From Lepisosteus oculatus (taxonomy: Eukaryota; Chordata; Actinopteri; Semionotiformes; Lepisosteidae): a stretch of DNA of 64,000 nt. Of this stretch, positions 10,428 through 64,000 are shown one piece after another. The stretch covers positions 43,336,788 through 43,400,787 of the forward strand of contig NC_090697.1 in NCBI RefSeq assembly GCF_040954835.1, read 5' to 3'. Both the position numbers and the translations under genes were made by a program. The notes beneath the pieces are model-generated. The model searched no databases. It had not been told where the DNA came from and saw nothing but the letters and a program-made list of their open reading frames with translations. The first letter of the stretch is position 1; every line of letters begins with the position of its first letter.

Positions 10428-16324
<5,897 letters not shown>

Positions 16325-35426: not shown

Positions 35427-35604
35427 TTTACTTTCAGTGCAGCAAACTCACTCCAGAAGTTCAGCGAGGATCTCTGAATGATCCAATGTTGTCCTAAATG
35501 ACTGATGGTGATAAATAGAATCCACCTGTGTGTAATCAAGTCTCTGTATAAATGCATCTGCTCTGTGATAGTCTCAAGGTTCTGTTGAAAGCGCAGAGAG
35601 CATC

Positions 35605-36624: not shown

Positions 36625-36630
36625 CGCAAG

Positions 36631-36843
36631 GGGGCCGAATAATTTTGCACGCCCCACTTTTCATTTTTTTATTAGTTAAAAAAGTTTCAAAAATCCAATA
36701 GATTTCGTTCCACTTCACAATTGTGTCCCACTTGTTGGTGATTCTTCACATAAAATAAAAAATGTATATCTTTATGTTTGAAGCCTGAAATGTGGCAAAA
36801 GGTTGAAAAGTTCAAGGGGGCCGAATACTTTCGCAAGGCACTG
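36631..36843 (-). repeat. Tc1 right terminal inverted repeat
   Basis: Complement of the left repeat, 213 bases, directly after the transposase stop and followed by the TA duplication. Confidence 0.92.
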
Positions 36844-38397
36844 TAAGCAGGGACCTACTGAATTAATTTAGAAAAATGATGGAAATATGCTTAATTTGGC
36901 AATGAAAAACAAAAATTAAAACATATTTGTTACAGGATTTTTAACTATGTGAGCTGTGAAAATCATCTCCTTTCTTAACTCTTTATCATACCAAATTCCT
37001 AGTGCAGTTTCCATCTAGTAGATTGAATTTCAAATCACATTAATTTTAGAACAACTAATCACAGTAATACATCACATAAGCAAATCATTTTCATAGAATT
37101 CTATGAGAGAAACAATATAATAAAGAAAAGTAAATTTCAGTAAAATTTGCTGGTTTATAAATAAAGGTGAAAAAAGAAGGAACTGTGTAACTTACAAACT
37201 TAACAAAGGTGACTTCCTTGAATAATTCATAGCTCCTTCCCTGGATATCACACCGGTTTTTGAGTTCACATACTGTATATGTAATTTTACAGATCACTTT
37301 CTTACAAAGTTATAGCCTCTTTTAATTTATGTATTTATTTTTCTTTGGAAATTATGCAGTGCCTTAAATTAACCTGTAAAACATTATTTTTTATGTTTGA
37401 CTTGTTTTTCTAATTTTAATTTTAAATAGCTTTATGCACCCGGAGATATTAATATATACAATCTTAGGCACAACTTAACTTTCACATTTATAGAACTGAG
37501 GTATATATTCAAGTGCAGTTGTTCCTGGATCTCAATGGATGGGGAATAAACCTCTAGTTGTATTTTCTACTTTTTATACATTTTAAAGATAATCTCCCCG
37601 CTCACATGTGGATTCTTTTGCTTGATACAATGTTCTTAAAACAAAAATGAGAAATACAGCCAGAAACGTATAGCCAGAAAACCTTTCCTCATCTTTGTGA
37701 GGAAGAGGGGATCTGTGACAAATCAAGAGATGGAGGGTCAGACACAAAAGAAAAAGAGCTTTCTCTTCAAACAAAACTAGGATCCTTTCTTATATAGCTT
37801 ACCTTCAACCTAAATCAAAATGCAGTCTACAATTAAAATCTGTAGCAACAATGTGTAACTGACAGGATCTCTGAAGGTCAGAGGTAATTTTTTGTCCGTT
37901 GAACCCAAACAAAAACAAAGATTTGTCTTTTTTGTGTTATTGGTTGTAAACTTGATTAAAAAAAGTATACACAAGCCCTGTCTGTGGATTCTGTCAAATA
38001 CGCCTGCTGTGTTACAGAGGTACTACAAAATGCTGTCTCTGTCATCAGGGAACACTTGGAGATGAAGAGCCAAATGTGTCCCTGTATGAAATGATAGTAT
38101 TAAGAGAACACTCCAACAAAAATCATACTAAAATGATGAAAGCATTTTATTTGTTCCCAATATGTGTATTCAGCAATGCTTCTCATGAAGTAATAAAATA
38201 TGATTAAAAAGTAAAGGTTCATTCCATGCTGAAAGGAAAAGATAAGACACAGCTATAGTACTGTACATACTTGATCAACATCAGCTAGAAGATACTGTCA
38301 GTAGAAAATTCACATGGAAATAAGTGAAAATACATAGTTTCTTAGAGATATTTCATAATGGGAAAAAAAAAGTGAATCCGCATTTCTTTTGAGATGC

Positions 38398-38403
38398 TTT
38401 TAT
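38398..38403 (-). terminator. Poly(A) signal of copy A
   Basis: AATAAA on the minus strand 28 bases after the stop codon of copy A. The same position is kept in the C copies. Confidence 0.6.
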
Positions 38404-38430
38404 TGACTATTTTCAAAACACGTGTTTCTT

Positions 38431-40599: not shown

Positions 40600-40712
40600 A
40601 GAGCAAAGAAGCTAATGAAAGATCTACTAAGCAAGGCAGATGAAGGTACAGTACATGCAGGGGTGTCCACAATTAAATGTGACCAATCTTCACATGTAAG
40701 AGGGTGAACCCC

Positions 40713-40719
40713 TTTTATA
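40713..40719 (-). promoter_or_regulatory. TATA box of copy A
   Basis: Minus-strand CCTATAAAAGGGG about 115 bases upstream of the copy A ATG. The same TATAAAAGG and its downstream ATTGGTCAC are kept before C1 and C2. Confidence 0.6.
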
Positions 40720-40921
40720 GGCTTGTGACAGTGTACGAATTCCACTGTCACCTGGAATAACATTCTGATCCGTTCATATTGCCAAGCATTAGTGTGAGGT
40801 CAGAACTCACCACATAAAACTGTTTTTATCACTGTTCACTGTCTGCATCAACCCTTTCAATATACAATATTCAACAGCCTTTCAATAACAGATCTGTGCT
40901 TAACACTGCTTAACTGAGCTA

Positions 40922-41060
40922 TCACAGTTGGCACCTTGTTGTGGGGATTCGTGCAGTGTCTCACAATGGCCTGGAGCACACTTGGTGTGGAGTTTGCATG
41001 TTCTCCCATGTTCTGTCTGGGCGAACTGGTGTCTCTACATCACCGCTCCATGTTTTTTTG
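40922..41060 (+). repeat. V-SINE fragment shared by units A and B
   Basis: GGTGTGGAGTTTGCATGTTC followed by TCCCATGTTCTGTCTGGGCG is V-SINE middle sequence. The same fragment is at 50655-50790 in unit B, so it was present before those units duplicated. Confidence 0.55.
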
Positions 41061-41957
41061 TGTGCTCTACACTTAGCAGACAATCATACTGTAGCCCCAC
41101 TTGTATTGTCACACTCCTGTAATGATAAAGATGAAAATATAAATATGGACGACTGATGTTTGTTTCACATTATGAGATCATATAAAGAAATGCTACTTTT
41201 ACGAAGTATCAGATGCAAGGCAGGAATAATATAGCAGTCCATTTATCAGTGTAACCATTTTGTGTAACTGATTCGACCGTGTTCTTTTGTACTTACACTT
41301 ATTGTAGATCTGCACAAGAGGTCACAGAAAATCACGGCTTATAAAATCATTGTACGTTCCTTAGTTTCAGTAAAGTAGAAACAACAAATAAACTATGATG
41401 GAAATTTTTGGGAATATTTATCGTTACTTCTCCAGATTCCTCTCTTTGGGTCCTACTGGCCTCTGACATCTTTCCACCCTGCAGAGAGTCAGAAGGAGCA
41501 GAAGCTTTTCAACACACCTGAGCACACAGCGCTGGTGTCTGAGAGAATGTAGTGCACAAGCATGGAAAATGTGATGGAACTGGAAGAACTAATATTTAAT
41601 ATATTTTATTTTAAAAATACATATTAAACTTTGGATACCAGTTATTAAATCAGAGGCAAACTGAGATCAACATTTATTAATAATGACACACTAAACAAAA
41701 TAACACAACATACTCAGAGACCTATATCCTGACTCACCAGAAAACTAAAACAGACTGCTACCAAGAATTTGATAATCCTATATAAGACCTGCATATACTG
41801 TATCAACAAAAGAGATAACCCTTCTAAACTACACATTTACAGGGGCCTAGACTTAAATCTTTAAATCTCTCTAAATCTGGATACTACAAAATGAATGGGA
41901 CCCTTTCCCCCTATTCTAGAAAACATTGCAGCTACTGACAAGGAGAGAGTGTTTTTA
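41061..41957. other. Intra-unit spacer of unit A
   Basis: No coding exon. The sequence is similar to 50800-51250 and 52860-52950 of unit B, which brackets the L2-like insertion there. Confidence 0.5.
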
Positions 41958-42545
41958 GCCAGCAGCCATATCACCCTGCAACTCACAACTGGCAACCCTC
42001 CCTGAAGCTAAGCAGGTGTGAGCCTGGTCAGTACCTTGATGGGAGACCTCCTGGGAAAAACCAAGGTTGCTGCTGGAAGAGGAGTTAGTGGGGCCAGCAG
42101 GGGGTGCTCACCCTGTGATCTGTGTAGGTCCTAATGCCCCAGTATAGTGACGGGGACACTATACTGTAAACAGGTGCTGTCCTTTGGATGAGACATAAAA
42201 CTGAGGTCCTGACTCTCTGTGGTCATTAAAAATCCCAGGGTGTTTCTCAAAAAGAGTAGGGGTGTAACCCTGGTGTGAGGGCCAAATTTCCTATTTGCCT
42301 CCTAAAAATCCCCCTCTATGAATTGGCTACATTACTCTGCAGCCCCACTTGTATTGTCACACTCCTGTAATGATAAAGATGAAAATATAAATATGGACTA
42401 TTTAATATGGACATTACTCTGCTCTCCTCCCCACTGATAGATGATGTGTGGTAAGCGTTCTGTTGCACTATGGCTGCTGTTGCATCATCCAGGTGGATGC
42501 TGCTGTTGCATCATCCAGGTGGATGCTGCACAATGGTTGTGGGAT
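41958..42545 (+). repeat. 5S-rRNA-derived SINE, plus strand
   Basis: Starts GCCAGCAGCCATATCACCCT and carries GAAGCTAAGCAGGTGTGAGC and TGATGGGAGACCTCCTGGG (5S internal promoter region), then the same tail as the copy at 20259. The tail is interrupted at 42341-42410 by a segment copied from nearby. It ends with a tandem duplication of a GTTGCATCATCCAGGTGGAT segment at 42480-42535. Unit B lacks this SINE. Confidence 0.8.
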
Positions 42546-43059
42546 TCTTTATACAGGAAATCGGAATTATCTTACGAGTCAAGTACTTTACTAGAATTTA
42601 GTTTTTATGGTTGATTTGAACCAGGATCTCTCGCCTCCCCTGTTTCCCTTTTTCTCTCTTCTCTGTTCTTTTCCCCTCTCTCTAAGCTTTATGTTTAAAT
42701 GATAAAAAAACAAATAACACTAATAAATAAACAAATGTACTTTGTTTCAATAGTGGACTCAAATAATAATAGATGCTATGCTTATATGCAAATATAAGTG
42801 GCAATACCTGGCCTCGGTTAATCTATCCAAATAACTTTATGTGGTGAATAAGGAAATTTACAAATCGTATCTCCAAAAATCCTTGAGATCCCGCAAAACT
42901 ATTTTTCAGTCTAATGAATTGTTACATTTGATATGATTACAAATCTCTCCAGTTGCTTATGTTTATGAAGCTCCTATTGGACAAAAATATTTTTCTGTAA
43001 TCAGAAATATCTGCTCACCTCACGCTGACCTTCAGTCCAAATCAGTTTATCTTCCACAA

Positions 43060-43265
43060 AGTTAAATTCATTCTCAGATGTATCAAATCTGCTGCTGGAT
43101 CTCCATTTTTGTCAAAATGTACCTTCTCTCCTACCGGTATGTTAAAATCCACCTCCTTGAGATAGTGAACAAGCTTTAAAACAAATTCATTGGAGCTAAC
43201 TAAATACAAGTAAAATATTTTGAAGGTTAAATGAAATTTCTGCTCCACACACCTTATTCATTCCT
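43060..43265 (-). pseudogene. Family C GPCR ectodomain exon relic, unit A
   Basis: Minus-strand frame SNEFVLKLVHYLKEVDFN, IPVGEKVHFDKNGDPAA is the best preserved receptor piece in the window. It matches the segment before the cysteine-rich region of V2R/calcium-sensing-type receptors (..LHYLK.V.F....GE.V.FDENGD..). No other receptor exon of this unit remains. An L1-like element follows upstream in transcript sense. Confidence 0.6.
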
Positions 43266-46500: not shown

Positions 46501-47940
46501 TATGGAATCAGTAGTGTGTCATCCGTTGCCCATACAATCTTTCTCTCTCATCCTAGCGTTAATCCCGCATCAGCAGGGTCCGCTTGTCGGCACGCCCGTC
46601 GCCATTTGGTGGTTTGAACCAAATCTTTGAGCTGACGTTGCCATTAAATGCGACTGAGAATACTCCAACCGGCGCGTAGCTCCACCTGCCGTCGGCCGTT
46701 GCCCATACAATCTCTACCCTTTATTAGCAATGTTAGTCTATTGAGAAATCTATCAGATACATTTGTAGTACACAGTACTTTCCTGGTCAGATCTTAACTT
46801 AATATACCCACTTGTCCATCTCTGTTATCACCTATCACATTCAATCCTGATTTCACTCCATAGATGAGAAATATAGGACTTTTAGACGGGACCAGAAATT
46901 GGATTTTTGACCTTTCCTGTTTATTCTTACAAGAAATGTTGAAATCTTTTGATCACATCAAAGCTGAATGTCATATTCCCACATCTGGGTTTTACAAATG
47001 TCTTCAAATACGGCATTATATTTTGTCTCCTATGAAAGAAAATAGATTGAGATTCGTTCTCTCTGAGGTTGAAAAAATCTTGGCTGAGGCGGAATAAAAA
47101 ACGCCTGGTACACCTAGGCGAATGTTATCAAAGTTATATAATATATATTAGTTAATAATTGTATGTCTTCATATACAACCTTGAAAACTATCTGGGAGCG
47201 AGACAGGAGGCACTCATTTCCTGAGGAGGACTGGCTATCAATTTGTGAAAAGCTTTATCCAAAGTGCTCTTCCCTTACCATAGAGGAGCTTAATTTTAAA
47301 TGTCTTAACAAATTTTATCGAACCCCAGTCCGTTTGCAAAAGATATACTCGGGTAGATCGAATCAGTGTTTTAAGCTTCACTCTTAGATGGGTACCTTTA
47401 TTCATCTATTCTGGCAATGTGATAAAATTAAACAAAACTGGAATAATGTACATTCTGTCATTAAAAAAATCTTGGGTAAAGATTTTACAATGTCTGCATA
47501 ATTGTATCTTCTACACGGTGATTATACAGTCAAATGTGACATTCAGATTCAGAATGTCTATTTTTTGTGCTTGTTCTGCAATGGTCTGTCAACGTACCAA
47601 CTGTTGAAATGTGGCTCTCTTGTCTCTACATTTCTGCCTCTGGAAAAACTGACATACAGTGTATGGTCTTCACTCGAGTTCTGTGCACGTTTGGAAGATT
47701 TGCTCACCACTTTGGACTATTGAAAATCACCTTTCTTATTTCATTTATTAATTGTTTTTTTTTCCTTTTAAAATTATATTAGTATTGGAGGGCTGTGCAA
47801 TTTTTTCACCTATATGCCATAGCATATCATTATGTAATTAATTTCCTTTTGCATTAATGGCTAATGATTGCATTTGATTTTGAATGAGGTAATGCTATAA
47901 ACTGACTTGTTACTGTTAAAAGCAAAATAAAAAGAAAATA
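43590..47940 (+). mobile_element. L1/Tx1-like LINE, degraded
   Basis: Plus-strand ORF1-like peptides occur at 43600-44090 (LMQDKIDDLENG, then LKWLDLPSDKSLDVERAHR), the L1 ORF1 coiled-coil/RRM pattern. ORF2-like pieces include ADGCPLEFYNKIW-type text near 45260, a DQTGFVK motif near 45520, RQGCALSPLLF near 45800, and YASDNLLYITKPEQSIPAVL near 45890 (the YADD box as YASD). A KSWVKILQ...-type C-terminal part and an A-rich end follow near 47930. Many stops and shifts make it inactive. It sits within unit A, between the receptor exon relic and copy B. A 155-base insertion lies inside it. Confidence 0.75.
46541..46695. mobile_element. 155-base GC-rich insertion inside the LINE
   Basis: The 18-base sequence CCGTTGCCCATACAATCT occurs at 46523-46540 and again at 46696-46713, a target-site duplication. 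The insert is much richer in CpG than its surroundings. It holds an ATTTGGT...ACCAAAT inverted repeat and, on the minus strand, GGTTCAAACC (B-box-like). There is no poly(A). It matches no RNA gene I know. Confidence 0.6.
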
Positions 47941-48266
47941 CAAAAGCACTAACAAATATCATAATAAAATAAAGTAAGCATATGTTATTTGTTACTCATT
48001 TGTGTAATCAGCCATGCTTCTCATAAAAGTAATACAATACAGTTAAAAAGTAAAGGTTCATTCCATGTTGAAAGGAAAAGATAAGACACAGCTATGGTAC
48101 CTACTTCATCATCATCAGCTAGAAGATACTGTCAGTAAAAAAATCACATGGAAATAAAAGTGTGAATACATAGTTTCTTAGAGGTGCTTCATAATGAAAA
48201 AAAACATGAATATAGATTTAGTTTGAAATGCTTTTATTGACTGTTTTCAAAGCACGTGTTTTTCTT

Positions 48267-50600
48267 TCACAGCTCTGTTTCCTCTGAGCCGACTTCAGCC
48301 CACAGGATGTACGAGCCCTCCTCAGAGGAGTCCGTGCTGCTGAGAGACTCCTGGGAGACACGCAGCTCTTCATGTGTCTGAGAACTCAAAACCATGTTCA
48401 CCTTCTCACTGTCAGCATCTTCCTCGCCATCCTCTTGCCAGGAGGAGGTGGAAGGAATGGGCACTCCTGGAAGCTGCCAGTCTATCTGCAAAGTGACCAG
48501 GAAGACAAGAGAAGACATCGCTTGACAGGGGAATGTCAATAGGAAACCTGCTTTTTTCAAGATCCTTTTTTACTTGGAAAAGTTAAAAACTAGAGAAGTA
48601 GTAATGGGAAACCAGCCTTGTTAAGTATTTCCAGCATAGGAAACCACACTGACAAGAAACTTATTTCAGTTGACATCTCATATCATTTCATATCATGGAA
48701 ATTGCTCCATGTAGGTGCCATTATATTTGCAAATGCCAGATTCTAACGGTGATCTGTGAAGGCCATGTTGACTAAACAATTGAAATTTGTGCTGCCACTC
48801 AGATGAACATTTAGGCTTGTCAAGAGAGCACAGATATATACCACCTGCATACTCCTGTATGAAAAAAGACACTCAGCTCTCTTCGAAGAGAACCCTATGG
48901 CATCGACAGCTTTAATAAAGGGGTTTACTTTAGCAGAGGCTCCTGTATCCTGTAGTCGAGGAGGCTCGGAATTTGGTCAGTTTCTGTTCCTCACAGCTGG
49001 GAGGCCAATAATTCCTGGGGCTGGGATTTCTTCACCAACCAGAGGGAACTGTTGCATTAGTAACATTTTAAAAGGTTCGATTGTCTGTAATTTAAAAATA
49101 TTTAAAGGGTTTGACTGTAATTTAAAAATGTGTATATGTATTTAATATATGTAACAAAGCAAACGGTGTAGCTTACAGGATCAGTGCCAGATAGTGCCGG
49201 CAGAGACAGTGCCGATACAAGGACTTGCAGTAGCAGGGAGTCCCGGCAGCACTGTGACTCTCACTCACTGGAGGGGGTGCAGTAACTGGTCTGATGGGCT
49301 TCTTGACAGGAACATCTGCCCACTTCGTGGTCGGGGGTCTCTCATTAGCCCGTGGAGCCTCTGGCGACACTGGCCTTGGAAACTGTTCAACTGGCTGTGG
49401 GTTTAGGAAAGAAGGCCAATGGGTAAGGTGTACATCTCAAAGATATATATAGTATAGGCATGTTTTTTATTTATTCTCTAGGTGTTCATATGAACCCTTG
49501 TTTCATCAAGAGCTTTAAGTGTTCAAGACAAAGTTTGTCCTTTACAAAGCCAATTTCTAAAGCAATGTGCAATCAAATAGAACATCACTAGTGTTGACCT
49601 CATCGGGGCAGCTCTTGCCAGTTTTCTACCTTTTAGTTTGAGCACTGACTTGAAGCAAATTGGAGTCTGGAGTAAAAACCATTAAGGGACATATTAAGAA
49701 CATAGTAAAAGTTGCAAGCACTAGGAGCCTTGGTGGTTCGGAAACCTATTTGTGGATTTAAAGTGTAATTTTTCAAATCCAATCATTTCTTAAAAGGTCG
49801 CAGAGTTTCTGGATGAACAAAGTAGCTGAGGAGCCTGCATCAGGAACCTACAACTCATTGTATAAAGAATTTTTCTCCAAATTTAAATACCTCTTACTTT
49901 CTAATTGTTACCCTGTTAGTTTCTCAGGGTGCTTGGATCACACCTGCAATGTTCACACAGTGTCCATGTGACTCACAGTTGTATGTTGTTTCTCAGGGTC
50001 TTCATGTCCTGCAGAGACAAGGTCTGTCACTGGAGTGGGGCCACGGCTTTCACCCAGATTTCGGTCGCTGGAGTTGTTGAGCTGAGTCCCAGTCGGTTCC
50101 ACTTGCTTGTTCGAATCACATCCACCTTCGTCTTCAGACCCTGAAACTGGGAGGGGGCTGGGGGGTGTCTTCACATCACATCAGAATCTGTAATTCAGAT
50201 GATCATCAAGAAACAGACTGGCAATATTCAGATAAATTCCTGTGAGGTGCTTCACACCCGGCTTCTCTCCTGAACCCCACTTTTCAGAATGTAAATGGGT
50301 TGATGCAGATGACACACTAAGTCACATTTTATTTTCTGTTACCCCTGGGTAAACATACCAAAGTCAGATCTGTTATCAGCAGTCTTCTAAAAGGACTGTT
50401 GTCTTTCAGACTAATAGAAAAAGCTCCTTACCTGTAGAAGTTGAGGTGGCAGGAGTGGGAGGTCACTGTAGCTGAGGTCTTGTCTTTCCAGTTCCAGTTT
50501 TTTTAATTTTTCCCAGGTGTGATTACACCACAGGAGACACACAAGGCCATGAGGTTCAGAAAAAAGGAAGCGAAGCAGTTTTTGGTTTTGTTTCCTGTTT
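48267..50600 (-). pseudogene. Copy B of the unrecognised five-exon gene, degenerate
   Basis: Exons on the minus strand: part of exon 1 (from about 50580 to the donor at 50432), exon 2 50187-49977, exon 3 49394-49177, exon 4 49084-48929, exon 5 48485-48267. Exon 5 (73 codons with stop) and exon 4 (52 codons) are in frame and close to copy A. Exons 2 and 3 have lengths that break the frame, exon 3 through an 11-base net gain and exon 2 through small indels. The MGQC start and TATA region are missing because the sequence diverges just past the hydrophobic segment NCFASFFLNLMALCVSC. This copy cannot make the full protein. Confidence 0.65.
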
Positions 50601-50654
50601 TAGGAATACAATAACTTAGATTTGCGCTTAGTACTGCTTAACTGAGCAATGAGG

Positions 50655-50790
50655 TTTGGCACCTTGTTGTGGTGATACCTGCAGTGTCTCACAATGGCCT
50701 TGAGCACACTTGGTGTGGAGTTTGCATGTTCTCCCATGTTCTGTCTGGGCGAACTGGTGTCTCTACATCGCAGCTCCATGTTTATTTTCT
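50655..50790 (+). repeat. V-SINE fragment in unit B
   Basis: Counterpart of 40922-41060, with the same GTGTGGAGTTTGCATGTTC core. The deletion that formed the C units has its left break inside this fragment. Confidence 0.5.
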
Positions 50791-51254
50791 GTGTGCTCTA
50801 CACTTAGCAGCCAATCATAATGTACCCCCATTTGTATTGCGCACCCCTGTAATGATAAAGATGAAAATATAAAAATTAAAGCTTAATTTTTGTTTCACAT
50901 AGATTATATTAAGAAATGCAAATTTTATTCAGTATCGTATGCAAGACAAGAATAATATAGCATTCCATTTATTGGTGTGATCTTTTTATTGTAACTGTAT
51001 GAATTGTGTTCTTTTGTACCTACGCTTATCGTAGATCTGCACAATCATGTCTCATAAAATAACTGTACGCTCTGGAATTACAGTAAACTAGAAGCAACAA
51101 TCAAACTTCAGTATGATGGAGATTTGCGGGGATATTTATCAGGAGCTCCTCAACACACCTGAGAAAACTCATCCCTTATCACAGTACTGGTGTCTGAGAG
51201 AATGTAGTGCACAAGCAAGGAAAATGTGATGGAATTGGAAGAACAGCGTAAATA

Positions 51255-52700
51255 AGAATAGTTTATTGCTATATGTACACCATTGGAATTCTGAATCGCG
51301 CTGATCTCACGGGACATACACAGACAACACCACACAATGTACACATTACATTACAAACTGAATAAATAATAACAACAGGAACAATAAATATGTTGTGGAA
51401 CATAAATATGTATTTGCGAGAAACAACATGGTAGACCATGCAAAAAACGCATACTGCAGATGTATATTGAGTCTGAGGCATTGTAGTTAGCTGTTGCGGA
51501 TAAGTACTGCAGTGGGATAGAAGCTGGTCTTGAGTCTAGTGTTTCTTGCTTTAATAGTGTGGTACCACTTGTCAGAGCGCAAGGGGGAGAACAGTTTGTG
51601 GCTGGAATGTTGGGATCCTGAATGAAGGATTGTGCTTTATTGTGACAGTGGATGGCATGAGTCTCACTGATTGGTATATGACATCCTATAAACCTGCGTG
51701 CCATTGCCACAATCCTTTGAAGTGCATCTCGTGCATTGTAGTATTGCTGTACCACACAGTGATGCCACTAGTGAGGACACTTTTTATGGTGCTATGGTAA
51801 ATGTTCATGAGGAATTCTGCAGAAAGTGCAGATGCTGTTGTGCCTTTTCCAGACTGGCTACAGTGTTGTGAGGCCAAGCCAAGTCGGTGGTGATCTGCAG
51901 GCCCTCAAACCTGAAGCAGCTGACAGTTTCCACTTCTGTGCCATCGATGCTGATTGGAGCGTGACTCCCTCTGGGTCTCCTGAAGTCCACAATGAGTTAT
52001 TTTGTCTTGCTGACATTCAGGGCCAGATTGTTGTCAAGGCACCATCTTGTAAGATGCTCCACCTCACTCCTGTATGTGGACTTTTTGTTGATCAGCCCAA
52101 TAACAGTGGTGTCATCTGCAAACATTTGGTTGCTGCTGTAAATGGCTATACATTCATAGATGAATAAGGAGTATAGCCTAGAACTGAGACAGCAGCCTTG
52201 GGATGGTCTAGTGTTTCGGATCACTGTAGAGGAGATATTGTTGCCAATTTTCACCACCTGAGGTCTGCCTGTCAGATAATCCAGTATCCAGCTGCAGATA
52301 GAGTTGCATAAGCCCTGATTTCTGAGTTTTGGGACAAGTTTAAAGAGAATAATTGTGTTGAAGGCCGAGCTGTAATCCATTAACAGAATCCTAACATAGA
52401 TGGCCTGCCTGTTTAAATGTTCTAGGCAGTATGTAGTGCTAGAAATATTGCATCATCAACTGACCTATTCCGCGGTAAGCAAACTCAAGTGGGTCAAAAG
52501 AGCGTAGGATAGTGTAATTTATATATGAAAATACTAAGCTTTCCAGACACTTCGTGACCACTGAAGTGAGTACCACTGTAATTGTTTAAACAAGTTATCT
52601 TGATCTTCTTGGGCAGTGGCACAGTTGTGGTTCTCTGGTTGTCCGCTTTACAGTTCATCAGAACGACAGAGTGTGCTTCTCTGATGTATGATATTGTTAC
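51255..52700 (-). mobile_element. L2-like LINE fragment
   Basis: Minus-strand reverse transcriptase pieces: TTTVPLPKKIKITCLNNYSG (52640-52570), then MDYSSAFNTIILFKLVPKLR, GNNISSTVIRNTRPSQGC, and FADDTTVIGLI (the ADD catalytic box, 52380-51997). Tail text such as WLDNNLALNVSKTK and ITVWYSNTTMHEMHFKGLWQ follows. These are hallmarks of fish L2/Maui-type elements. It is 5'-truncated and frame-broken. Comparison with unit A, which has continuous sequence here, shows it inserted in unit B. Confidence 0.75.
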
Positions 52701-53339: not shown

Positions 53340-55620
53340 ACCCACAAAAATATTTTTTAGTCTCATGAATTTCAGCATTAGATCATATATCATCTTTGAT
53401 ATGATTATAAATCTCTCTCCAATTACTTATGCTTATGTATCTCCTACTGACAAACACATTTCTCAGTCATCAAAAATAATTGGCTGACCCCCAGTCCAAA
53501 CCTGTTCATCTTCCTCAATGTTAAGTTCATTCTCAGATCAATCTGATGCATCAAACTGACCAACATTCACAAACTTTACCAACCCGTCCACCTGCCTTTG
53601 CCAGTTGATAATCATTCATACTGAATGTCAAAATGTATCTCTTCTCCTACAGGTGTGTTACCATCCATTTCTTTGAGATAGTGAACGAGCTTTAAAACAA
53701 ATTCATTTGAGGTAATTAAATACAAATAAATTATTTTGAAGGTTAAAATTAAATTTCACCTCCACACACGTCATTCATACCTGCCATGGCTGGAGTTCAG
53801 TGATGTCTGGGCATGTTCCATTCTTAAAAGGACCTTTTCCAGGGCCGCAGAGCAGCATGTGATGAAGAGCCAGTGCTACTGGGTACACAGCTTTGTACAC
53901 GTTGTATGTTAACTGAGTCTTAACTGAGTCATATCATTATAAGTAGTTTGAATGATCTAATCATTCTGTGCTGCAGATGTGAGAGCACCATTCTCTATCG
54001 CTGACAGAATTAAAGAGCAGTCAAATGATGTTTTGATTCACAACTTCCCCCAGAGCCAATGAGAATGAAAGAGATGTCTGCATCACTGGCAAATGTGATG
54101 ATGACTGTTGCTGTACACTGCTTTATGTGAATGATAAATTTGTATTATTTTTTTCTTAAAGTACACCATGGGAATAATTTCAGTAAGTTCAGTGCAGACA
54201 TCAAACTTCTGAACTTTATTTCAAATGATCTATATTCCATATTTCCCATAGTCATCATCTCCAGCTATTACTTCAACCCAAGTCCAAGTCAAAATGTTTC
54301 AGTAATTTGGCCATTGCCCTGGCCTGAAAACATTAAAAGTAGCTGACCTAGAATGCAGATTACAAGTTTAGTCAGGTTCCTGTTGAAGGTGTTGACTAAA
54401 GGTCTCAGTTCATTCTGGAACAAGAAGATGAAACAATAATGCTGGAGTACACTCCATTTCTTTTCATCAGTGTTACTGATATAAGCAAGTACCTACCCCA
54501 TTAATTTAGAAAACTGATGGAAATATGATTAATTTGACAGTGAAAATCAAGAATAAAAACATTCTTCCCAGGATTTTTAACAATGTCTTTGCCAGTGAGA
54601 TGTAAAAATCATCTGTTAACTGAACTCTTTATTGTACCAAATTCCCAATGCAGCTTTCATCTGGTAGGTTAAATTTCAAATAATTCTGGGAAGAATCACA
54701 CTAATTTTAGATAATCTAATCACAGGTATGACTCACACAAGGAAATATTTTTCATAGAATTCTATGAGAGAAACAGAACAATCGAGAAAAGTGAATTTTA
54801 GTAGGAATTTAGTAGGTTTGCTGTGTGGGAAATAAAGGTGTACAAGAAGGGACTGTGCAAGAAGGGACTGTGTAATTTACAAATTGCATATAAAAGGTAC
54901 TTCCATGAATAATTCCTAGCTCCTTCCCTGGATATCACACCAGCTGCTGAAAGACTGTCCTCCTAATCCTATACTGCATTCCCACCTGTAAGAGAACCAG
55001 CTGGATCACCTCCTTGCTGAAGGAATTTTAGAGACGCAGAGAGTTCTGGCAATAACTATGGATCCAGTTGAGCTGGCATCCCAAGTAATGACAGGTACGC
55101 CTGGAGCTCGTTCACGCCTGGAGCCGGCCATGTCTCCCTCTCTCCTGTCAACAGGGCCAGGGCCTCCCTGAGAGCCGCAAGCCGTGTCAGACAGGTGACA
55201 GCAATGGCGTAACCCACTGTCATGTTCAGAAGAAGCTCAGTCTTCCACAGCAAACATCATTTCCTGTGTCAAGGCATCATTGCCTTTTCTTCTGCCAGTG
55301 GAATCCCCTGAAATACAAACTACAATTTCAAAGATAATTATTTCAGTAGTTCTTATAATTCAGCTTCATTGTTATGTGTTTGTACAGTTGCTGTAGGATA
55401 TTCCTGGATCTGTAAGAATGGTTAAAAAAACCTCCAGTTCTAATGTCTATGTTCTAGTTCTAATGTTCTAGAAACAAAAATAAGAAATACAGTCAGAAAT
55501 GTGCAGCCAGAAAACTCTTCCTCCTCTTCGTGAGGAAGAGGGGATCTATGACAAAGAAAGAAACAAAGAGTCAAAAACCTTCCCCTCAAACAAAACTAGG
55601 ATCCTTTCTTATATAGCTTA
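53340..55620 (-). pseudogene. Family C GPCR (V2R/OlfC-like) relic, unit B
   Basis: Transcript order: a signal-peptide-like piece near 55600-55460, truncated. Next, exon 2 from 55307 (after a TTTCAG acceptor) reads DALTQEMMFAVED then, shifted, ELLLNMTVGYAIAVTCLTRL and EALALLTGERE. These resemble the A.MFAIEEIN, LLPN.TLGY.I.DTC and LALVTG segments of the receptor's first lobe, followed by DASSTGS (compare GDASST). Lobe-2 pieces lie near 54350-53950 and the FDKNGD-type exon near 53760-53620. Frames are broken and no cysteine-rich or seven-helix exon is present. The unit is the best guide to the original gene order. Confidence 0.6.
54482..54483. other. Empty Tc1 target site in unit B
   Basis: The sequence TTACTGATATAAGCAAG aligns with the two flanks of the Tc1 at 35214 (TTACTCATATA and TAAGCAG). 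It shows the site before insertion, with a single TA. Confidence 0.8.
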
Positions 55621-56047
55621 CCCAATACCTAAATCAAAGTGCTGTCCAATCAGCTATTAAAATCTGTAGCAGCAATGTGTAACTGACAGGATCTCTGAAG
55701 GCCAGAGGTAATTATATGACCGTTGAACCCAAATGAAAAAAAGGAATTGTGTTTTTTGTGTTATTGGTTATAAACATGATTATCCAAGAATACACAAGCC
55801 CTGTCTGTGGATTTTGTCAAATACGCCTGCTGTGTTACAGAGGTATTACAGAATGTTTTCGCCATCATCAGGGAACACTTGGAGATGAAGAGCCAAATGT
55901 GTCCCTGTATGAAATGACTTGATCCTCAGTAGCTTGAAGATGCTCTCAGTCAACAATAAACGCATAAATAACAGCGTGAATACACAGTTACAGAGAGATG
56001 TTTCATAATGAAAAAAAAAACTGAATACACATTTAGTTTGAGATTCT

Positions 56048-56053
56048 TTTATT
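56048..56053 (-). terminator. Poly(A) signal of C1
   Basis: AATAAA on the minus strand about 28 bases past the stop, giving a very short 3' UTR. Repeated at 59307-59312 (C2) and 62567-62572 (C3). Confidence 0.65.
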
Positions 56054-56080
56054 AAATGGTTTCAAGGCACGTGTTTTCTT

Positions 56081-58094
56081 TCACAGCTCTGTTTCTTCTG
56101 AGCCGACCTCAGCCCACAGGATGTATGAGCCCTCCTCAGAGGAGTCCGTGCTGCTGAAAGACTCCTGGGAGACATGCAGCTCATCTTCCTCGCCATCCTC
56201 TTGCCAGGAGGAGGGGGAAGGAATAGGCACTCCTGGAAGCTGCCAGTCTATCTGCAAAGTGACCAGGAAGACAAGAGAAGACATTGTAATAGGTTTATTC
56301 CATGCTGAAAAAAAGAAGAAAGAGAACACAACGTTTCGGCCGTGGAGCCTTCTTCAGGTGCCACCAAGAGAAGACATTGCTTGACAGGGGAATGTCAATA
56401 GGAAACCTGCTTTCTTCCACATCCTTTTTTACATGGCAATTTCAACAGCCCGCTCTCTTCCAAGAGAACCCTATGGCATCGACAGCTTTAATAAAGGGGC
56501 TTACTTTAGCAGAGGGTCCTGTGTCCTGTAGTTGAAGAGGCTCGGATTTTGGTCTGTTTCCGTTCCTCAACACTGAGAGGCCAATCAGTCCTGGGGCTGG
56601 GATGTCATTACCAACTAGAGGCAACGGTTGTGTTGGTAACATTTTAAATGGTTCAATTGTCTGTAATAAAATAAAATTCACATATGTAAAAAAGCACACA
56701 GACTCTCTGGCAGAGACAGTAACGATACACAGACTTGCAGTAGCAGGGAGTCCCGGCAGCACTGTGACTCTCTCACTCACTGGAGGGGGTGCAGTAACTG
56801 GCCTGATGGGCTTCTTGACAGAAACATCAGCCCACTTCGTGGTCGGGGGTCTGTCATTAGCCCGTGGAGCCTCTGGTGACACTGGCCTTGGAAACTGTTC
56901 AACTGGCTGTGGGTTTAGGAAAGAAGGCCAATGGGTAAGGTGTTCATCTCATAGATATATATAGTATAGGCATGTTTTTTATTTATTCTCTAGCTGTTCA
57001 TACGAACCCTTGTTTTTTCAAGAGCTTCAAGTGTTGAAGACAAAGTTTGTCCTTTTCATAGCTAATTTCTTAAAGAATTTGAAATAGTATAGGACATCAC
57101 TGGTATTGACCTCATTGGGGCAGCTATTGCCAGTTTTCTACCTTTCAGTATGACCACTGACTTAGAAAATCTGAAGCAATTTTGGCTCTGGAGTAAAAAG
57201 CATTAAGGGACATATTAAGAACATTGCAGATGTTGCAAGCACTAGGAGCCTGTTAGGCCTGCCTTGGTGATTTGGAAACCTACGGTATATTCTAAGTGAA
57301 TGTAAAATGTATTTTTTCTATTTCTAGAAAACTATTAGTTTCTAATTGTTACCCTTTTTCTACCTGTTAGTTTCTCAGGGTACTTGGATCACACCCGCAA
57401 TGTTCACACAGTGCCCATGTGACTCACAGTTGTGTGTCCTTTTTCAGGGTCTTTATGTCCTGCAGAGACAGGGTCTGTCACTGGAGTGGGGCCGCTGGAG
57501 TTGTTAGGCTGAATCCCAGTCGGTTCCGCTTGCTTGTTCGAGACTGATAGGGGGCTGGGGGGTGTCTTCACATCAGAGTCTGTAATTCAGATGACCATCA
57601 AGAAACAGACTGGAAATATTCAGATAAATTCCTGTGAGGTGCTTCACACCCGGCTCGTCTCCTGAACCCCACTTTTCAGAATGTAAACGGGTTGATGCAG
57701 ATGACACACTAAGTCACATTTTATTTTCTGTTACCCATGGGTAAACATATCAAAGTCAGATCTGTTATCAGCAGTCTTGTAAAAGGACTGTTGTCTTTCA
57801 GGCTAATAGAAAAAGCTCCTTACCAGTAGAACATGAGGTGGCAGGAGTAGCCGTGGTCTTCTCTTTGCGGTTGCGGGTTTTGGAATTAGGCCCGGGGGTG
57901 ACTCCACCGCAGCAGACACAGAGGGCCATGATGTGAAGAAAAAAAGAAGCGAAACAGTTTTTCTTCTTGTTTCCTGGACGCCTTCTCTTTTTCCTTTTTT
58001 TCCAGGCACATTCATGGTCACCTGGGGGGGTAACTGGAGGGCCTCTGGCCTTCCAGGCCTGTGGCCCCCTTGGGTCACTCTGACATTGACCCAT
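56081..58094 (-). CDS. Unrecognised five-exon gene, copy C1 (318 aa)
   Basis: Function unknown. Exons in transcript order: 58094-57824, 57579-57428, 56906-56700, 56660-56505, 56251-56081; 957 nt, no stop until the end. The ATG is about 110 bases below a TATA box. Residues 1-6 MGQCQS fit N-myristoylation (Gly2, Ser6) with Cys4 available for palmitate. A basic run KKRKKRRRPGNKKKN lies at 32-46, then a hydrophobic stretch CFASFFLHIMALCVCCGG at 47-64. Residues 91-210 are rich in proline, serine and threonine (TPPSPL, KKPIRPVTAPPP). Residues 263-318 are acidic, with SSTDSSEEGSYILWAEV and a final -ETEL, a class I PDZ-ligand form. From this I infer a membrane-attached protein with a long unstructured part. 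Three acceptors and most donors are standard, but the exon 3 donor is GTGTGC. Copies A and B have GTAATC and GTAAGC there. Confidence 0.7.
56287..56364 (-). mobile_element. 78-base Penelope/hammerhead-like insertion in intron 4 (C1)
   Basis: Flanked by a 15-base duplication CAAGAGAAGACATTG (56272-56286 and 56365-56379). Copy B has the uninterrupted site. The minus strand reads CCTGAAGAAGGCTCCACGGC, then CGAAACGTTGTG, a T-rich spacer, and GCATGGAATAAACC. CTGAAGA, a GGC/GCC hairpin and GAAAC in that order resemble the conserved core of a hammerhead ribozyme as found in Penelope-like elements. Same insertion at 59546-59623 and 62806-62883. Confidence 0.5.
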
Positions 58095-58202
58095 AGAGCA
58101 AAGAAGCTAACGAAAGACCTACTTTGTAATCCAAAAGAAGGTAAGTGCAGGGCTGTCCACAATTAAATGTGACCAATCCTCACATGTAAGAGGGTGACCC
58201 CC

Positions 58203-58209
58203 TTTTATA
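58203..58209 (-). promoter_or_regulatory. TATA box of C1
   Basis: Minus-strand GCCTATAAAAGGGGG. The predicted start is near 58175, leaving an untranslated leader of roughly 80 bases before the ATG at 58094. An ATTGGTCAC follows. Conserved at 61462-61468 (C2) and 40713-40719 (A). Confidence 0.65.
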
Positions 58210-58442
58210 GGCTTGTGATAGTGTAAGAATTCCGCTGTCACCTGGAATAACATTCTGATGCGTTCATGTTGCCAAGCATTAGTGTGATGTCATAACTCAC
58301 CTCATAAAGCTGTTTATATCACTGTTCACTGTTTGCAGCATCCCTTTCAGTATTAAATATTCAAAAGCCTTTTAATTACTTCGATTTGTGCTTAACACTG
58401 TTAACTGAGCGATAATATTCGACTCCTTGTTGTGGTGATTCC

Positions 58443-58810
58443 ACCGCAAACATCATCTCCTGTGTCAAGGCATCATTGCCTTTTCTTCTGCCAGCGGAAT
58501 CCCCTGAAATACAAACTACAATTTCAAAGATAATTATTTCAGTAGTTCTTATAATTCAGCTTCATTGTTATGTGCTTGTACAGTTGCTGTAGGATATTCC
58601 TGGATCTGTAAGAATGGTGAAAACAACCTCCAGTTATAATGTCTACTTATATACAGTATATATACTAAAGATAACCTCCCCTGAAGCTTACATGTGGATT
58701 CTTCTGCTTGGTACAATGTTCTAGAAACAAAAATAAGAAATACAGTCAGAAATGTGCAGCCAGAAAACTCTTCCTCCTCTTCGTGAGGAAGAGGGGATCT
58801 ATGACAAAGA
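58443..58810 (-). pseudogene. Receptor exon 1-2 remnant in unit C1
   Basis: Minus-strand piece FSGCTFLTVFLIFVSRTLYQ with EEST before a GTAAGC donor (near 58780-58680) is a signal-peptide-like exon. After an acceptor at about 58510 come some 20 codons matching the start of unit B exon 2 (NDALTQEMMFA). The sequence then jumps to the region upstream of the TATA box. The remaining receptor exons are deleted. No in-frame ATG is visible. Confidence 0.45.
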
Positions 58811-59339
58811 AAGAAACAAAGAGTCAAAAACCTTCCCCTCAAACAAAACTAGGATCCTTTCTTATATAGCTTACCCAATACCTAAATCAAAGTGCTGTCC
58901 AATCAGCTATTAAAATCTGTAGCAGCAATGTGTAAGTAACTGACAGGATCTCTGAAGGCCAGAGGTAATTATATGACCGTTGAACCCAAATGAAAAAAAG
59001 GAATTGTGTTTTTTGTGTTATTGGTTATAAACATGATTATCCAAGAATACACAAGCCCTGTCTGTGGATTTTGTCAAATACGCCTGCTGTGTTACAGAGG
59101 TATTACAGAATGTTTTCGCCATCATCAGGGAACACTTGGAGATGAAGAGCCAAATGTGTCCCTGTATGAAATGACTTGATCCTCAGTAGCTTGAAGATGC
59201 TCTCAGTCAACAATAAACGCATAAATAACAGCGTGAATACACAGTTACAGAGAGATGTTTCATCATGAAAAAAAAAAAACTGAATACACATTTAGTTTGA
59301 GATTCTTTTATTAAATGGTTTCAAGGCACGTGTTTTCTT

Positions 59340-61353
59340 TCACAGCTCTGTTTCTTCTGAGCCGACCTCAGCCCACAGGATGTATGAGCCCTCCTCAGAG
59401 GAGTCCGTGCTGCTGAAAGACTCCTGGGAGACATGCAGCTCATCTTCCTCGCCATCCTCTTGCCAGGAGGAGGGGGAAGGAATAGGCACTCCTGGAAGCT
59501 GCCAGTCTATCTGCAAAGTGACCAGGAAGACAAGAGAAGACATTGTAATAGGTTTATTCCATGCTGAAAAAAAGAAGAAAGAGAACACAACGTTTCGGCC
59601 GTGGAGCCTTCTTCAGGTGCCACCAAGAGAAGACATTGCTTGACAGGGGAATGTCAATAGGAAACCTGCTTTCTTCCACATCCTTTTTTACATGGCAATT
59701 TCAACAGCCCGCTCTCTTCCAAGAGAACCCTATGGCATCGACAGCTTTAATAAAGGGGCTTACTTTAGCAGAGGGTCCTGTGTCCTGTAGTTGAAGAGGC
59801 TCGGATTTTGGTCTGTTTCCGTTCCTCAACACTGAGAGGCCAATCAGTCCTGGGGCTGGGATGTCATTACCAACTAGAGGCAACGGTTGTGTTGGTAACA
59901 TTTTAAATGGTTCAATTGTCTGTAATAAAATAAAATTCACATATGTAAAAAAGCACACAGACTCTCTGGCAGAGACAGTAACGATACACAGACTTGCAGT
60001 AGCAGGGAGTCCCGGCAGCACTGTGACTCTCTCACTCACTGGAGGGGGTGCAGTAACTGGCCTGATGGGCTTCTTGACAGAAACATCAGCCCACTTCGTG
60101 GTCGGGGGTCTGTCATTAGCCCGTGGAGCCTCTGGTGACACTGGCCTTGGAAACTGTTCAACTGGCTGTGGGTTTAGGAAAGAAGGCCAATGGGTAAGGT
60201 GTTCATCTCATAGATATATATAGTATAGGCATGTTTTTTATTTATTCTCTAGCTGTTCATACGAACCCTTGTTTTTTCAAGAGCTTCAAGTGTTGAAGAC
60301 AAAGTTTGTCCTTTTCATAGCTAATTTCTTAAAGAATTTGAAATAGTATAGGACATCACTGGTATTGACCTCATTGGGGCAGCTATTGCCAGTTTTCTAC
60401 CTTTCAGTATGACCACTGACTTAGAAAATCTGAAGCAATTTTGGCTCTGGAGTAAAAAGCATTAAGGGACATATTAAGAACATTGCAGATGTTGCAAGCA
60501 CTAGGAGCCTGTTAGGCCTGCCTTGGTGATTTGGAAACCTACGGTATATTCTAAGTGAATGTAAAATGTATTTTTTCTATTTCTAGAAAACTATTAGTTT
60601 CTAATTGTTACCCTTTTTCTACCTGTTAGTTTCTCAGGGTACTTGGATCACACCCGCAATGTTCACACAGTGCCCATGTGACTCACAGTTGTGTGTCCTT
60701 TTTCAGGGTCTTTATGTCCTGCAGAGACAGGGTCTGTCACTGGAGTGGGGCCGCTGGAGTTGTTAGGCTGAATCCCAGTCGGTTCCGCTTGCTTGTTCGA
60801 GACTGATAGGGGGCTGGGGGGTGTCTTCACATCAGAGTCTGTAATTCAGATGACCATCAAGAAACAGACTGGAAATATTCAGATAAATTCCTGTGAGGTG
60901 CTTCACACCTGGCTCGTCTCCTGAACCCCACTTTTCAGAATGTAAACGGGTTGATGCAGATGACACACTAAGTCACATTTTATTTTCTGTTACCCATGGG
61001 TAAACATATCAAAGTCAGATCTGTTATCAGCAGTCTTGTAAAAGGACTGTTGTCTTTCAGGCTAATAGAAAAAGCTCCTTACCAGTAGAACATGAGGTGG
61101 CAGGAGTAGCCGTGGTCTTCTCTTTGCGGTTGCGGGTTTTGGAATTGGGCCCGGGGGTGACTCCACCGCAGCAGACACACAGGGCCATGATGTGAAGAAA
61201 AAAAGAAGCGAAACAGTTTTTCTTCTTGTTTCCTGGACGCCTTCTCTTTTTCCTTTTTTTCCAGGCACATTCATGGTCACCTGGGGGGGTAACTGGAGGG
61301 CCTCTGGCCTTCCAGGCCTGTGGCCCCCTTGGGTCACTCTGACATTGACCCAT
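59340..61353 (-). CDS. Unrecognised five-exon gene, copy C2 (318 aa)
   Basis: Second full copy. Exons: 61353-61083, 60838-60687, 60165-59959, 59919-59764, 59510-59340. The predicted protein has the same length and layout as C1. The two coding differences I noticed in exon 1 (C1 57892 and 57925 versus C2) are silent: one in the Pro codon before Asn70 and one in the Leu codon of MALCV. Promoter, poly(A) signal, the weak exon 3 donor and the 78-base intron insertion are shared with C1. Function unknown. The near-identity means a very recent duplication or ongoing gene conversion. Confidence 0.7.
59546..59623 (-). mobile_element. 78-base Penelope/hammerhead-like insertion (C2)
   Basis: Same element and same 15-base target duplication as in C1. 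It was therefore present before the array amplified. Confidence 0.5.
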
Positions 61354-61461
61354 AGAGCAAAGAAGCTAACGAAAGACCTACTTTGTAATCCAAAAGAAGG
61401 TAAGTGCAGGGCTGTCCACAATTAAATGTGACCAATCCTCACATGTAAGAGGGTGACCCCC

Positions 61462-61468
61462 TTTTATA
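61462..61468 (-). promoter_or_regulatory. TATA box of C2
   Basis: CCTATAAAAGG on the minus strand, about 110 bases upstream of the C2 ATG, identical in context to C1. Confidence 0.65.
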
Positions 61469-61701
61469 GGCTTGTGATAGTGTAAGAATTCCGCTGTCAC
61501 CTGGAATAACATTCTGATGCGTTCATGTTGCCAAGCATTAGTGTGATGTCATAACTCACCTCATAAAGCTGTTTATATCACTGTTCACTGTTTGCAGCAT
61601 CCCTTTCAGTATTAAATATTCAAAAGCCTTTTAATTACTTCGATTTGTGCTTAACACTGTTAACTGAGCGATAATATTCGACTCCTTGTTGTGGTGATTC
61701 C

Positions 61702-62069
61702 ACCGCAAACATCATCTCCTGTGTCAAGGCATCATTGCCTTTTCTTCTGCCAGCGGAATCCCCTGAAATACAAACTACAATTTCAAAGATAATTATTTCA
61801 GTAGTTCTTATAATTCAGCTTCATTGTTATGTGCTTGTACAGTTGCTGTAGGATATTCCTGGATCTGTAAGAATGGTGAAAACAACCTCCAGTTATAATG
61901 TCTACTTATATACAGTATATATACTAAAGATAACCTCCCCTGAAGCTTACATGTGGATTCTTCTGCTTGGTACAATGTTCTAGAAACAAAAATAAGAAAT
62001 ACAGTCAGAAATGTGCAGCCAGAAAACTCTTCCTCCTCTTCGTGAGGAAGAGGGGATCTATGACAAAGA
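61702..62069 (-). pseudogene. Receptor exon 1-2 remnant in unit C2
   Basis: Same signal-peptide-like exon and truncated second exon as in C1, with the same deletion junction near 61701. Confidence 0.45.
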
Positions 62070-62599
62070 AAGAAACAAAGAGTCAAAAACCTTCCCCTCA
62101 AACAAAACTAGGATCCTTTCTTATATAGCTTACCCAATACCTAAATCAAAGTGCTGTCCAATCAGCTATTAAAATCTGTAGCAGCAATGTGTAAGTAACT
62201 GACAGGATCTCTGAAGGCCAGAGGTAATTATATGACCGTTGAACCCAAATGAAAAAAAGGAATTGTGTTTTTTGTGTTATTGGTTATAAACATGATTATC
62301 CAAGAATACACAAGCCCTGTCTGTGGATTTTGTCAAATACGCCTGCTGTGTTACAGAGGTATTACAGAATGTTTTCGCCATCATCAGGGAACACTTGGAG
62401 ATGAAGAGCCAAATGTGTCCCTGTATGAAATGACTTGATCCTCAGTAGCTTGAAGATGCTCTCAGTCAACAATAAACGCATAAATAACAGCGTGAATACA
62501 CAGTTACAGAGAGATGTTTCATCATGAAAAAAAAAAAAACTGAATACACATTTAGTTTGAGATTCTTTTATTAAATGGTTTCAAGGCACGTGTTTTCTT

Positions 62600-64000
62600 T
62601 CACAGCTCTGTTTCTTCTGAGCCGACCTCAGCCCACAGGATGTATGAGCCCTCCTCAGAGGAGTCCGTGCTGCTGAAAGACTCCTGGGAGACATGCAGCT
62701 CATCTTCCTCGCCATCCTCTTGCCAGGAGGAGGGGGAAGGAATAGGCACTCCTGGAAGCTGCCAGTCTATCTGCAAAGTGACCAGGAAGACAAGAGAAGA
62801 CATTGTAATAGGTTTATTCCATGCTGAAAAAAAGAAGAAAGAGAACACAACGTTTCGGCCGTGGAGCCTTCTTCAGGTGCCACCAAGAGAAGACATTGCT
62901 TGACAGGGGAATGTCAATAGGAAACCTGCTTTCTTCCACATCCTTTTTTACATGGCAATTTCAACAGCCCGCTCTCTTCCAAGAGAACCCTATGGCATCG
63001 ACAGCTTTAATAAAGGGGCTTACTTTAGCAGAGGGTCCTGTGTCCTGTAGTTGAAGAGGCTCGGATTTTGGTCTGTTTCCGTTCCTCAACACTGAGAGGC
63101 CAATCAGTCCTGGGGCTGGGATGTCATTACCAACTAGAGGCAACGGTTGTGTTGGTAACATTTTAAATGGTTCAATTGTCTGTAATAAAATAAAATTCAC
63201 ATATGTAAAAAAGCACACAGACTCTCTGGCAGAGACAGTAACGATACACAGACTTGCAGTAGCAGGGAGTCCCGGCAGCACTGTGACTCTCTCACTCACT
63301 GGAGGGGGTGCAGTAACTGGCCTGATGGGCTTCTTGACAGAAACATCAGCCCACTTCGTGGTCGGGGGTCTGTCATTAGCCCGTGGAGCCTCTGGTGACA
63401 CTGGCCTTGGAAACTGTTCAACTGGCTGTGGGTTTAGGAAAGAAGGCCAATGGGTAAGGTGTTCATCTCATAGATATATATAGTATAGGCATGTTTTTTA
63501 TTTATTCTCTAGCTGTTCATACGAACCCTTGTTTTTTCAAGAGCTTCAAGTGTTGAAGACAAAGTTTGTCCTTTTCATAGCTAATTTCTTAAAGAATTTG
63601 AAATAGTATAGGACATCACTGGTATTGACCTCATTGGGGCAGCTATTGCCAGTTTTCTACCTTTCAGTATGACCACTGACTTAGAAAATCTGAAGCAATT
63701 TTGGCTCTGGAGTAAAAAGCATTAAGGGACATATTAAGAACATTGCAGATGTTGCAAGCACTAGGAGCCTGTTAGGCCTGCCTTGGTGATTTGGAAACCT
63801 ACGGTATATTCTAAGTGAATGTAAAATGTATTTTTTCTATTTCTAGAAAACTATTAGTTTCTAATTGTTACCCTTTTTCTACCTGTTAGTTTCTCAGGGT
63901 ACTTGGATCACACCCGCAATGTTCACACAGTGCCCATGTGACTCACAGTTGTGTGTCCTTTTTCAGGGTCTTTATGTCCTGCAGAGACAGGGTCTGTCAC
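62600..64000 (-). CDS. Unrecognised five-exon gene, copy C3 (partial, cut by window end)
   Basis: Third copy, 3' part only: exon 5 62770-62600, exon 4 63179-63024, exon 3 63425-63219, and the first 54 bases of exon 2 from 63947. The frame is intact in all of it and equal to C2 as far as I can see. The start and promoter lie beyond 64000, so further copies may follow. Confidence 0.68.
62806..62883 (-). mobile_element. 78-base Penelope/hammerhead-like insertion (C3)
   Basis: Third copy of the intron 4 insertion with the same flanking duplication. Confidence 0.5.

Follow-up and report, generated by a model that had tools for sequence, protein, structure and literature searches.

The 64,000-bp stretch of the Lepisosteus oculatus genome analysed here (the window; contig C2:43336788-43400787, NC_090697.1 of assembly GCF_040954835.1) carries at its right end part of a head-to-tail array, whose units each hold a five-exon gene on the minus strand. 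Two older copies of this gene, A and B, lie further left in the window, a sister gene forms an array on contig C5, and a single-copy member is found on contig C13. Coordinates are window positions unless a contig is named; units C1–C7 denote units of the array, while contigs C2, C5, C7, C13 and C18 denote contigs of the genome. The same assembly was searched as a whole (1.20 Gb, 813 contigs), and as these searches scored the best candidates only, all copy counts are lower bounds.

The array in the window and its gene

Repeat search and alignment bore out the first-pass annotation, made from the letters alone, in its description of three head-to-tail 3.26-kb units with an intact five-exon gene. 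The units stand in register with a spacing of 3259 and 3260 bp in the body, but the duplicated unit begins at 55243 and not, as had been proposed, at 55462. The strand of the gene was absent from that annotation. The units and the parts of the gene are as follows.

55243–58438, minus strand: unit C1, the left end unit (repeat search and alignment)
58439–61697, minus strand: unit C2, 3259 bp
61698–64000, minus strand: unit C3, truncated at the right edge of the window, 3260 bp at full length; four further units lie outside the window
57824–58094, minus strand: exon 1 of unit C1, with MGQ start, basic stretch, hydrophobic helix and VCCGGV motif
57428–57579, minus strand: exon 2 of unit C1, with a homologue in the contig C5 unit
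56781–56906, minus strand: exon 3 of unit C1, with preferred donor CCA/GTGAGT; extends to 56700 in the first-pass version
56505–56660, minus strand: exon 4 of unit C1; ratio of non-synonymous to synonymous change (dN/dS) near 1 relative to copies A and B; nothing in the contig C5 unit matches it significantly
56081–56251, minus strand: exon 5 of unit C1, stop included, with DWQxPGVP motif, SSTDSSEEGSY motif and C-terminal ETEL
58193–58211, minus strand: TATA box region of unit C1, CCTATAAAAGGGGGTCACC, with its unit C2 counterpart at 61452–61470; the same in 7/7 units
58212–58330, minus strand: proximal promoter of unit C1, TGACATCACACTAAT ... TCCAGGTGACA, conserved at other family loci
56040–56056, minus strand: poly(A) signal AATAAA of unit C1, beginning 27 nt downstream of the stop; unchanged in 7/7 units
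59340–61353, minus strand: gene of unit C2, exons 61353–61083, 60838–60687, 60165–60040, 59919–59764 and 59510–59340
62600–64000, minus strand: gene of unit C3, of which exons 5, 4, 3 and part of 2 lie inside the window

All introns are of the GT-AG type, intron 1 being phase 1, and the frame is kept over every junction in units C1 and C2 as had been claimed, giving 876 nt and 291 amino acids; the two units encode identical proteins from coding parts that differ at two bases. A TATA box and a poly(A) signal, both anticipated in the first pass, were found. The 318-amino acid protein proposed there was reproduced exactly with an exon 3 that runs 81 nt further to a donor TCT/GTGTGC. As this donor matches the consensus at 4 of 9 positions and CCA/GTGAGT, which also stands in copies A and B, at 7 of 9, the 291-amino acid protein would be the preferred product. 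The longer exon 3 may nevertheless be used, since its homologue in the contig C5 unit continues across the comparable region as far as LPVR/gtgagt. Translation from the second ATG (M56, with a Kozak context that is strong by eye) was considered as well and is weakened, because exon 1 is conserved and selected between loci from MGQ onward, although copy A is disrupted in exon 1 before codon 56.

In the whole genome the array comprises seven units instead of the three first described, ending at about contig C2:43414773. The 291-amino acid frame is open in all seven, and all splice sites are intact in six of them. Units C2–C6 differ by 1–12 substitutions per pair, unit C1 differs from these by 16–23, and unit C7, the right end unit, differs from all others by 38–51. 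In the 2302 bases of unit C3 that the window includes, units C2 and C3 are set apart by the length of a poly-A run, by a single base; over the whole unit one substitution is added to this. The first 207 bp of unit C1 share 96.6% identity with unit C2, the following approximately 60 bp are missing or different, and the remainder is 99.7% identical counting gaps; the roughly 2980 bases from 55462 on contain 4 substitutions and two short indels. The left edge of unit C1 is thus more diverged than its body (7 differences in 207 bp versus 4 in 2977 bp, p = 1.2e-6), which argues that the units were duplicated before their bodies became so alike, and hence for homogenisation. The head-to-tail units share near-identical non-coding DNA, and the inner units are alike while end units and flanking copies are diverged or damaged. 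The earlier suggestion of recent amplification or homogenisation is therefore supported by the near-identical units, and the contrast between edge and body favours homogenisation of an older duplication.

Two older copies of the gene accompany the array in the window.

37450–41450, minus strand: copy A, exons 2–5 open, exon 1 disrupted
47900–51150, minus strand: copy B, broken

Exon 1 of copy A carries an insertion, a 4-nt loss and a CTG at the place of the second ATG of the array units. Copy B has stops in exons 1 and 4, a 5-nt insertion in exon 2 and a 2-nt loss in exon 1, and its promoter and start are missing. In aligned segments longer than 100 bp, both copies show 75–87% identity to unit C2. 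From codon 56 on, the exon indels among A, B and the array units (15, 24, 30/39, 48 and 9 nt) are multiples of three, the exceptions being the breaks of 2 and 5 nt in copy B. Copies A and B are part of repeated blocks of about 10 kb, which also hold remnants resembling a receptor exon.

These receptor-like relics, at 43045–43257 (minus strand) and near 34265 (minus strand), are repeated together with the gene blocks. They resemble one exon of a family C (vomeronasal type 2) receptor, a tentative label, as no Pfam match was obtained and the only related entry in the PDB was mGluR7 at E 0.9, ranked behind unrelated proteins.

Related loci and selection

Rather than standing alone, the array turned out to be one branch of a family. 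Contig C5:33833605-34071835 holds a 69-unit, 3.5-kb homogenised array of a sister gene, for which a protein search of the genome returned 68 exon-1 matches between 33.83 and 34.07 Mb, spaced by 3394–3507 bp, 96–99% identical to the contig C5 query and free of stops (0/68); the 69th unit lies in register 3500 bp further right. Among the 17 start sites in the stretches that were read, 16 are in register and the last, 5135 bp beyond, is incomplete. Fifteen of the 16 in-register units have intact 296-amino acid frames, the right-most one being frameshifted, and splice sites and TATA are present in all 16. Units of the right-hand stretch share 99.3–99.5% identity with a middle reference unit, compared with 98.1% for the end unit. 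Beyond the right end of this array (stretch L043 3200–6500), frames resembling a long terminal repeat (LTR) retrotransposon by eye adjoin decayed family copies.

A complete single-copy gene with four exons and 299 open codons lies at contig C13:1901238-1899904. An exon of prohibitin-2 (PHB2; E 6e-13) is found about 10 kb away, a neighbourhood known from this genome alone, and the single copy is probably the ancestral member of the family. Relics are present at contig C7:25322149 (one stop) and contig C18:6184700 (a weak match, E 2.9e-4, three stops), while a fragment at contig C13:3.28 Mb retains exon 5 and the promoter, with a transposon-like stretch replacing exons 1–4. By eye this stretch (L013 3600–4650) is Tc1-like. 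Altogether the genome holds about 75 seemingly intact genes, mostly in the two homogenised arrays, 22 of which were read whole.

Between the three loci the protein is clearly under purifying selection, judged by Fisher tests on rounded counts at dS values near saturation. We obtained dN 0.47 and dS 1.41 for contigs C2 and C5 (p 9.4e-12), dN 0.60 and dS 1.65 for contigs C2 and C13 (p 1.9e-9) and dN 0.67 and dS 1.76 for contigs C5 and C13 (p 2.6e-8), that is, dN/dS of about 0.33–0.38. For exon 1 alone the p values are 0.0024, 0.00015 and 2.5e-6 in the same order, and exon 2 alone is not significant between contigs C2 and C13 (p 0.19). Conservation of the sequence upstream of the TATA box extends to the contig C2 array, copy A, contig C5, contig C7 and the contig C13 fragment, and in part to the contig C13 single-copy gene. 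Purifying selection between loci together with this conserved proximal promoter argues for a real gene family. Within the contig C2 locus, where codons with gaps or stops were omitted and exon 1 was counted from codon 56, exons 3 and 5 are better conserved than introns (p 5e-5 to 6e-4), and the evidence for selection from this locus alone is moderate. Positive selection on exons 1 and 4, suggested by more differences there than in introns, was considered and rejected, dN/dS of exon 4 being close to 1 and its excess over introns not significant.

The predicted protein and neighbouring features

Invariant in all three loci are the MGQ start, the VCCGGV motif ending the hydrophobic stretch and DWQ.PGVP near the C-terminus. 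The N-termini read MGQCQS, MGQNLC and MGQRHS. The N-myristoylation consensus has Gly2 with Ser, Thr or Cys at position 6, a combination found in all three loci, with serine in two of them; MGxxxS followed by basic residues is compatible with myristoylation and attachment to membranes. Residues 47–65 have a mean hydropathy of 2.08, and the only helix in the structure models of exon 1 (47–62) falls in this stretch. The commonest residues are Pro, Ser and Thr, with 15% proline and five S-x-E sites. The arrays on contigs C2 and C5 encode a C-terminal ETEL or ETEV, and the contig C7 and C13 fragments ETEL; such tails fit class I PDZ ligands. Myristoylated, polybasic membrane proteins of the MARCKS/Src type are comparable in their N-terminus (here MGQ, with serine 6 at two of the three loci), their basic residues and their low-complexity body, but no sequence homology was found, the hydrophobic VCCGGV helix is extra here, and lipid addition is here a prediction.

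The statement that the gene belongs to no recognised family held within the libraries covered. Pfam gave no match up to E 10 for the 291-amino acid protein or for exons 3–5 of copy A, and none for the contig C5 and C13 proteins. For the window protein nothing significant was found in the PDB, where an engineered protein ranked first at E 0.22, or in NCBIfam (best E 0.44). Two queries against viral contigs returned 5 and 19 pattern matches, none of which was upheld by tblastn. In the parts available of the works that a literature search found, no description of the family appears. Judging by selection the gene is real, and it is undescribed as far as Pfam, NCBIfam, PDB and viral libraries reach.

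The remaining features of the window are the following.

10432–16324, minus strand: HSP90 gene, the nearest identified gene, presumably hsp90ab1; Pfam HSP90 match for the exon at 11901–12191, range by eye
35212–36845, plus strand: Tc1 element of the Sleeping Beauty type with an open 339-amino acid transposase frame and 218-bp inverted ends that are 99% alike, hence probably a recent insertion
20594–20712, minus strand, and 41958–42078, plus strand: two 5S rRNA-like copies, 93% alike over 233 bp; at a guess, a short interspersed nuclear element derived from 5S rRNA
52000–52452, minus strand: reverse transcriptase fragment (RVT_1, E 6e-12)

Proposed origin, alternatives and meaning of the arrays

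We are highly confident that these loci represent a real multi-exon protein-coding family multiplied into homogenised head-to-tail arrays. From the single-copy member near prohibitin-2, one branch would have given rise to the window array with its seven units and two decayed older copies near the HSP90 gene, and a second derived branch to the 69-unit array on contig C5. Every inner unit that was read is complete as a transcription unit: it has a conserved TATA promoter, splice sites and a poly(A) signal of its own, and is presumably expressed. The inner units are near-identical and end units such as unit C7 and the right-most contig C5 unit are diverged or damaged, a pattern which shows that unequal exchange or gene conversion maintains the similarity of the copies. 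Dosage, with one small product supplied in quantity, would be the likeliest use of the array, and we give this reading about even odds. The product is predicted to be mostly disordered and held at the membrane via a myristoylated glycine 2, the basic stretch and the hydrophobic cysteine-bearing helix, and in the arrayed branches the ETEL/ETEV tail would provide a putative class I PDZ ligand. That it acts as a membrane-anchored adaptor is a doubtful suggestion drawn from these motifs. As a whole, the explanation comprising an amplified and homogenised family, an ancestral single copy, dosage and an anchored product seems to us reasonably probable.

Several observations weigh against this explanation. 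Over codons 1–55 copy A has a large insertion and several gaps whose lengths are not divisible by three. Intron 1 (57580–57823 in unit C1) aligns without gaps at 93–96% identity among A, B and unit C2, above exons 1 and 4 and equal to the best exons, so that part of the local contrast may be due to conversion; the likeness of this intron perhaps reflects conversion or a regulatory element. The contig C2 locus compared with copies A and B has an overall dN/dS of 0.55–0.78 with exon 4 at about 1, and pooled dN versus dS for exons 3 and 5 is weak (p 0.035); exon 5 alone shows no significant constraint between contigs C5 and C13 (p 0.62). In unit C7 the intron 2 donor has changed from GT to TT, at the base matching window position 60686. 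Of the contig C5 array 16/69 units were read whole, and of the 13 distinct coding variants in the 15 intact copies, 12 are non-synonymous and one is synonymous, with sites numbering 211 synonymous and 677 other, so no constraint is visible at that depth. One of these copies, 34036803, carries G2S, which would abolish its myristoylation. The contig C13 single-copy gene does not have the ETEL tail, and the structure models are of low confidence (mean pLDDT, the predicted local distance difference test, 54 and 59).

Some of these points would also be expected if the array were a dead or silent satellite-like repeat of a once-coding unit, its frames open only through youth: copies A and B are broken, unit C7 has lost a donor, the end unit on contig C5 is frameshifted, the contig C5 variants are mostly non-synonymous, and 6–26% of neutral simulations keep the 291-amino acid frame open at 4–8% divergence. 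Purifying selection between the contig C2, C5 and C13 loci and the conserved promoter speak against such a repeat, as does the confinement of damage, among the copies read, to end units and outlying copies, and we consider it unlikely. It is slightly less likely still that the copy number is inflated by the assembly, with units C2 and C3, and some contig C5 units, each being one unit counted twice. One substitution and one poly-A base between C2 and C3 would fit this, but units other than C3 differ from unit C2 by 6–40 substitutions, every pair except C2/C3 differs by at least 5, the edge of unit C1 shows an older duplication, and the two arrays are embedded in contigs 78 and 62 Mb long. The assembly repeat feared in the first pass is thereby weakened by the 78-Mb contig and the differing pairs, and kept in play by the near-identity of C2 and C3.

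Two further alternatives concern the nature of the product. A secreted or matrix protein of the SCPP type, in place of a membrane-anchored cytosolic one, would share with the SCPP secretory phosphoproteins the proline-rich composition (15%), the five S-x-E sites and the occurrence in tandem copies, and the hydrophobic stretch 47–65 could act as a signal anchor. However, 46 residues, many of them basic or proline, precede this stretch, exon 1 is selected between loci, and the family has no ordinary signal peptide; SCPP introns are phase 0, whereas intron 1 is phase 1 here. We judge such a protein to be about as improbable as assembly inflation. A virus-derived or transposon-borne gene, for which tandem amplification, Tc1 and LTR-like elements nearby and an MGQ start as it occurs in some retroviral Gag proteins could be cited, is very improbable. 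Four or five exons, a promoter of cellular type and a poly(A) signal stand against it, Pfam gave no match, viral-contig relatives were unconfirmed with two queries, and no inverted repeat of at least 60 bp is present in 54–64 kb. Both readings were rejected on these grounds, the latter within the searches named, and so was a vomeronasal type 2 receptor (V2R) reading.

To our knowledge, few spliced animal protein-coding genes are kept in long homogenised arrays; arrayed genes such as histones serve extreme demand or genetic conflict. The family described here resembles histone-type homogenised arrays in its head-to-tail order, its near-identical coding and non-coding DNA, the promoter in each unit read and the damaged or diverged ends, and it differs in having one spliced gene per unit and in the presence of a single-copy paralogue alongside the arrays of 69 and 7 units. 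A single genome holds this gene as a single copy, in arrays of 7 and 69 units and as dead relics, which permits a direct comparison of amplification, homogenisation and decay. We tentatively suggest that a vertebrate family not yet described, made up of small disordered proteins with a lipid anchor, may have been driven to histone-like copy number from the one gene near PHB2; massive output of the protein would then be in demand, or the object of a genetic conflict, for instance in eggs or the germ line.

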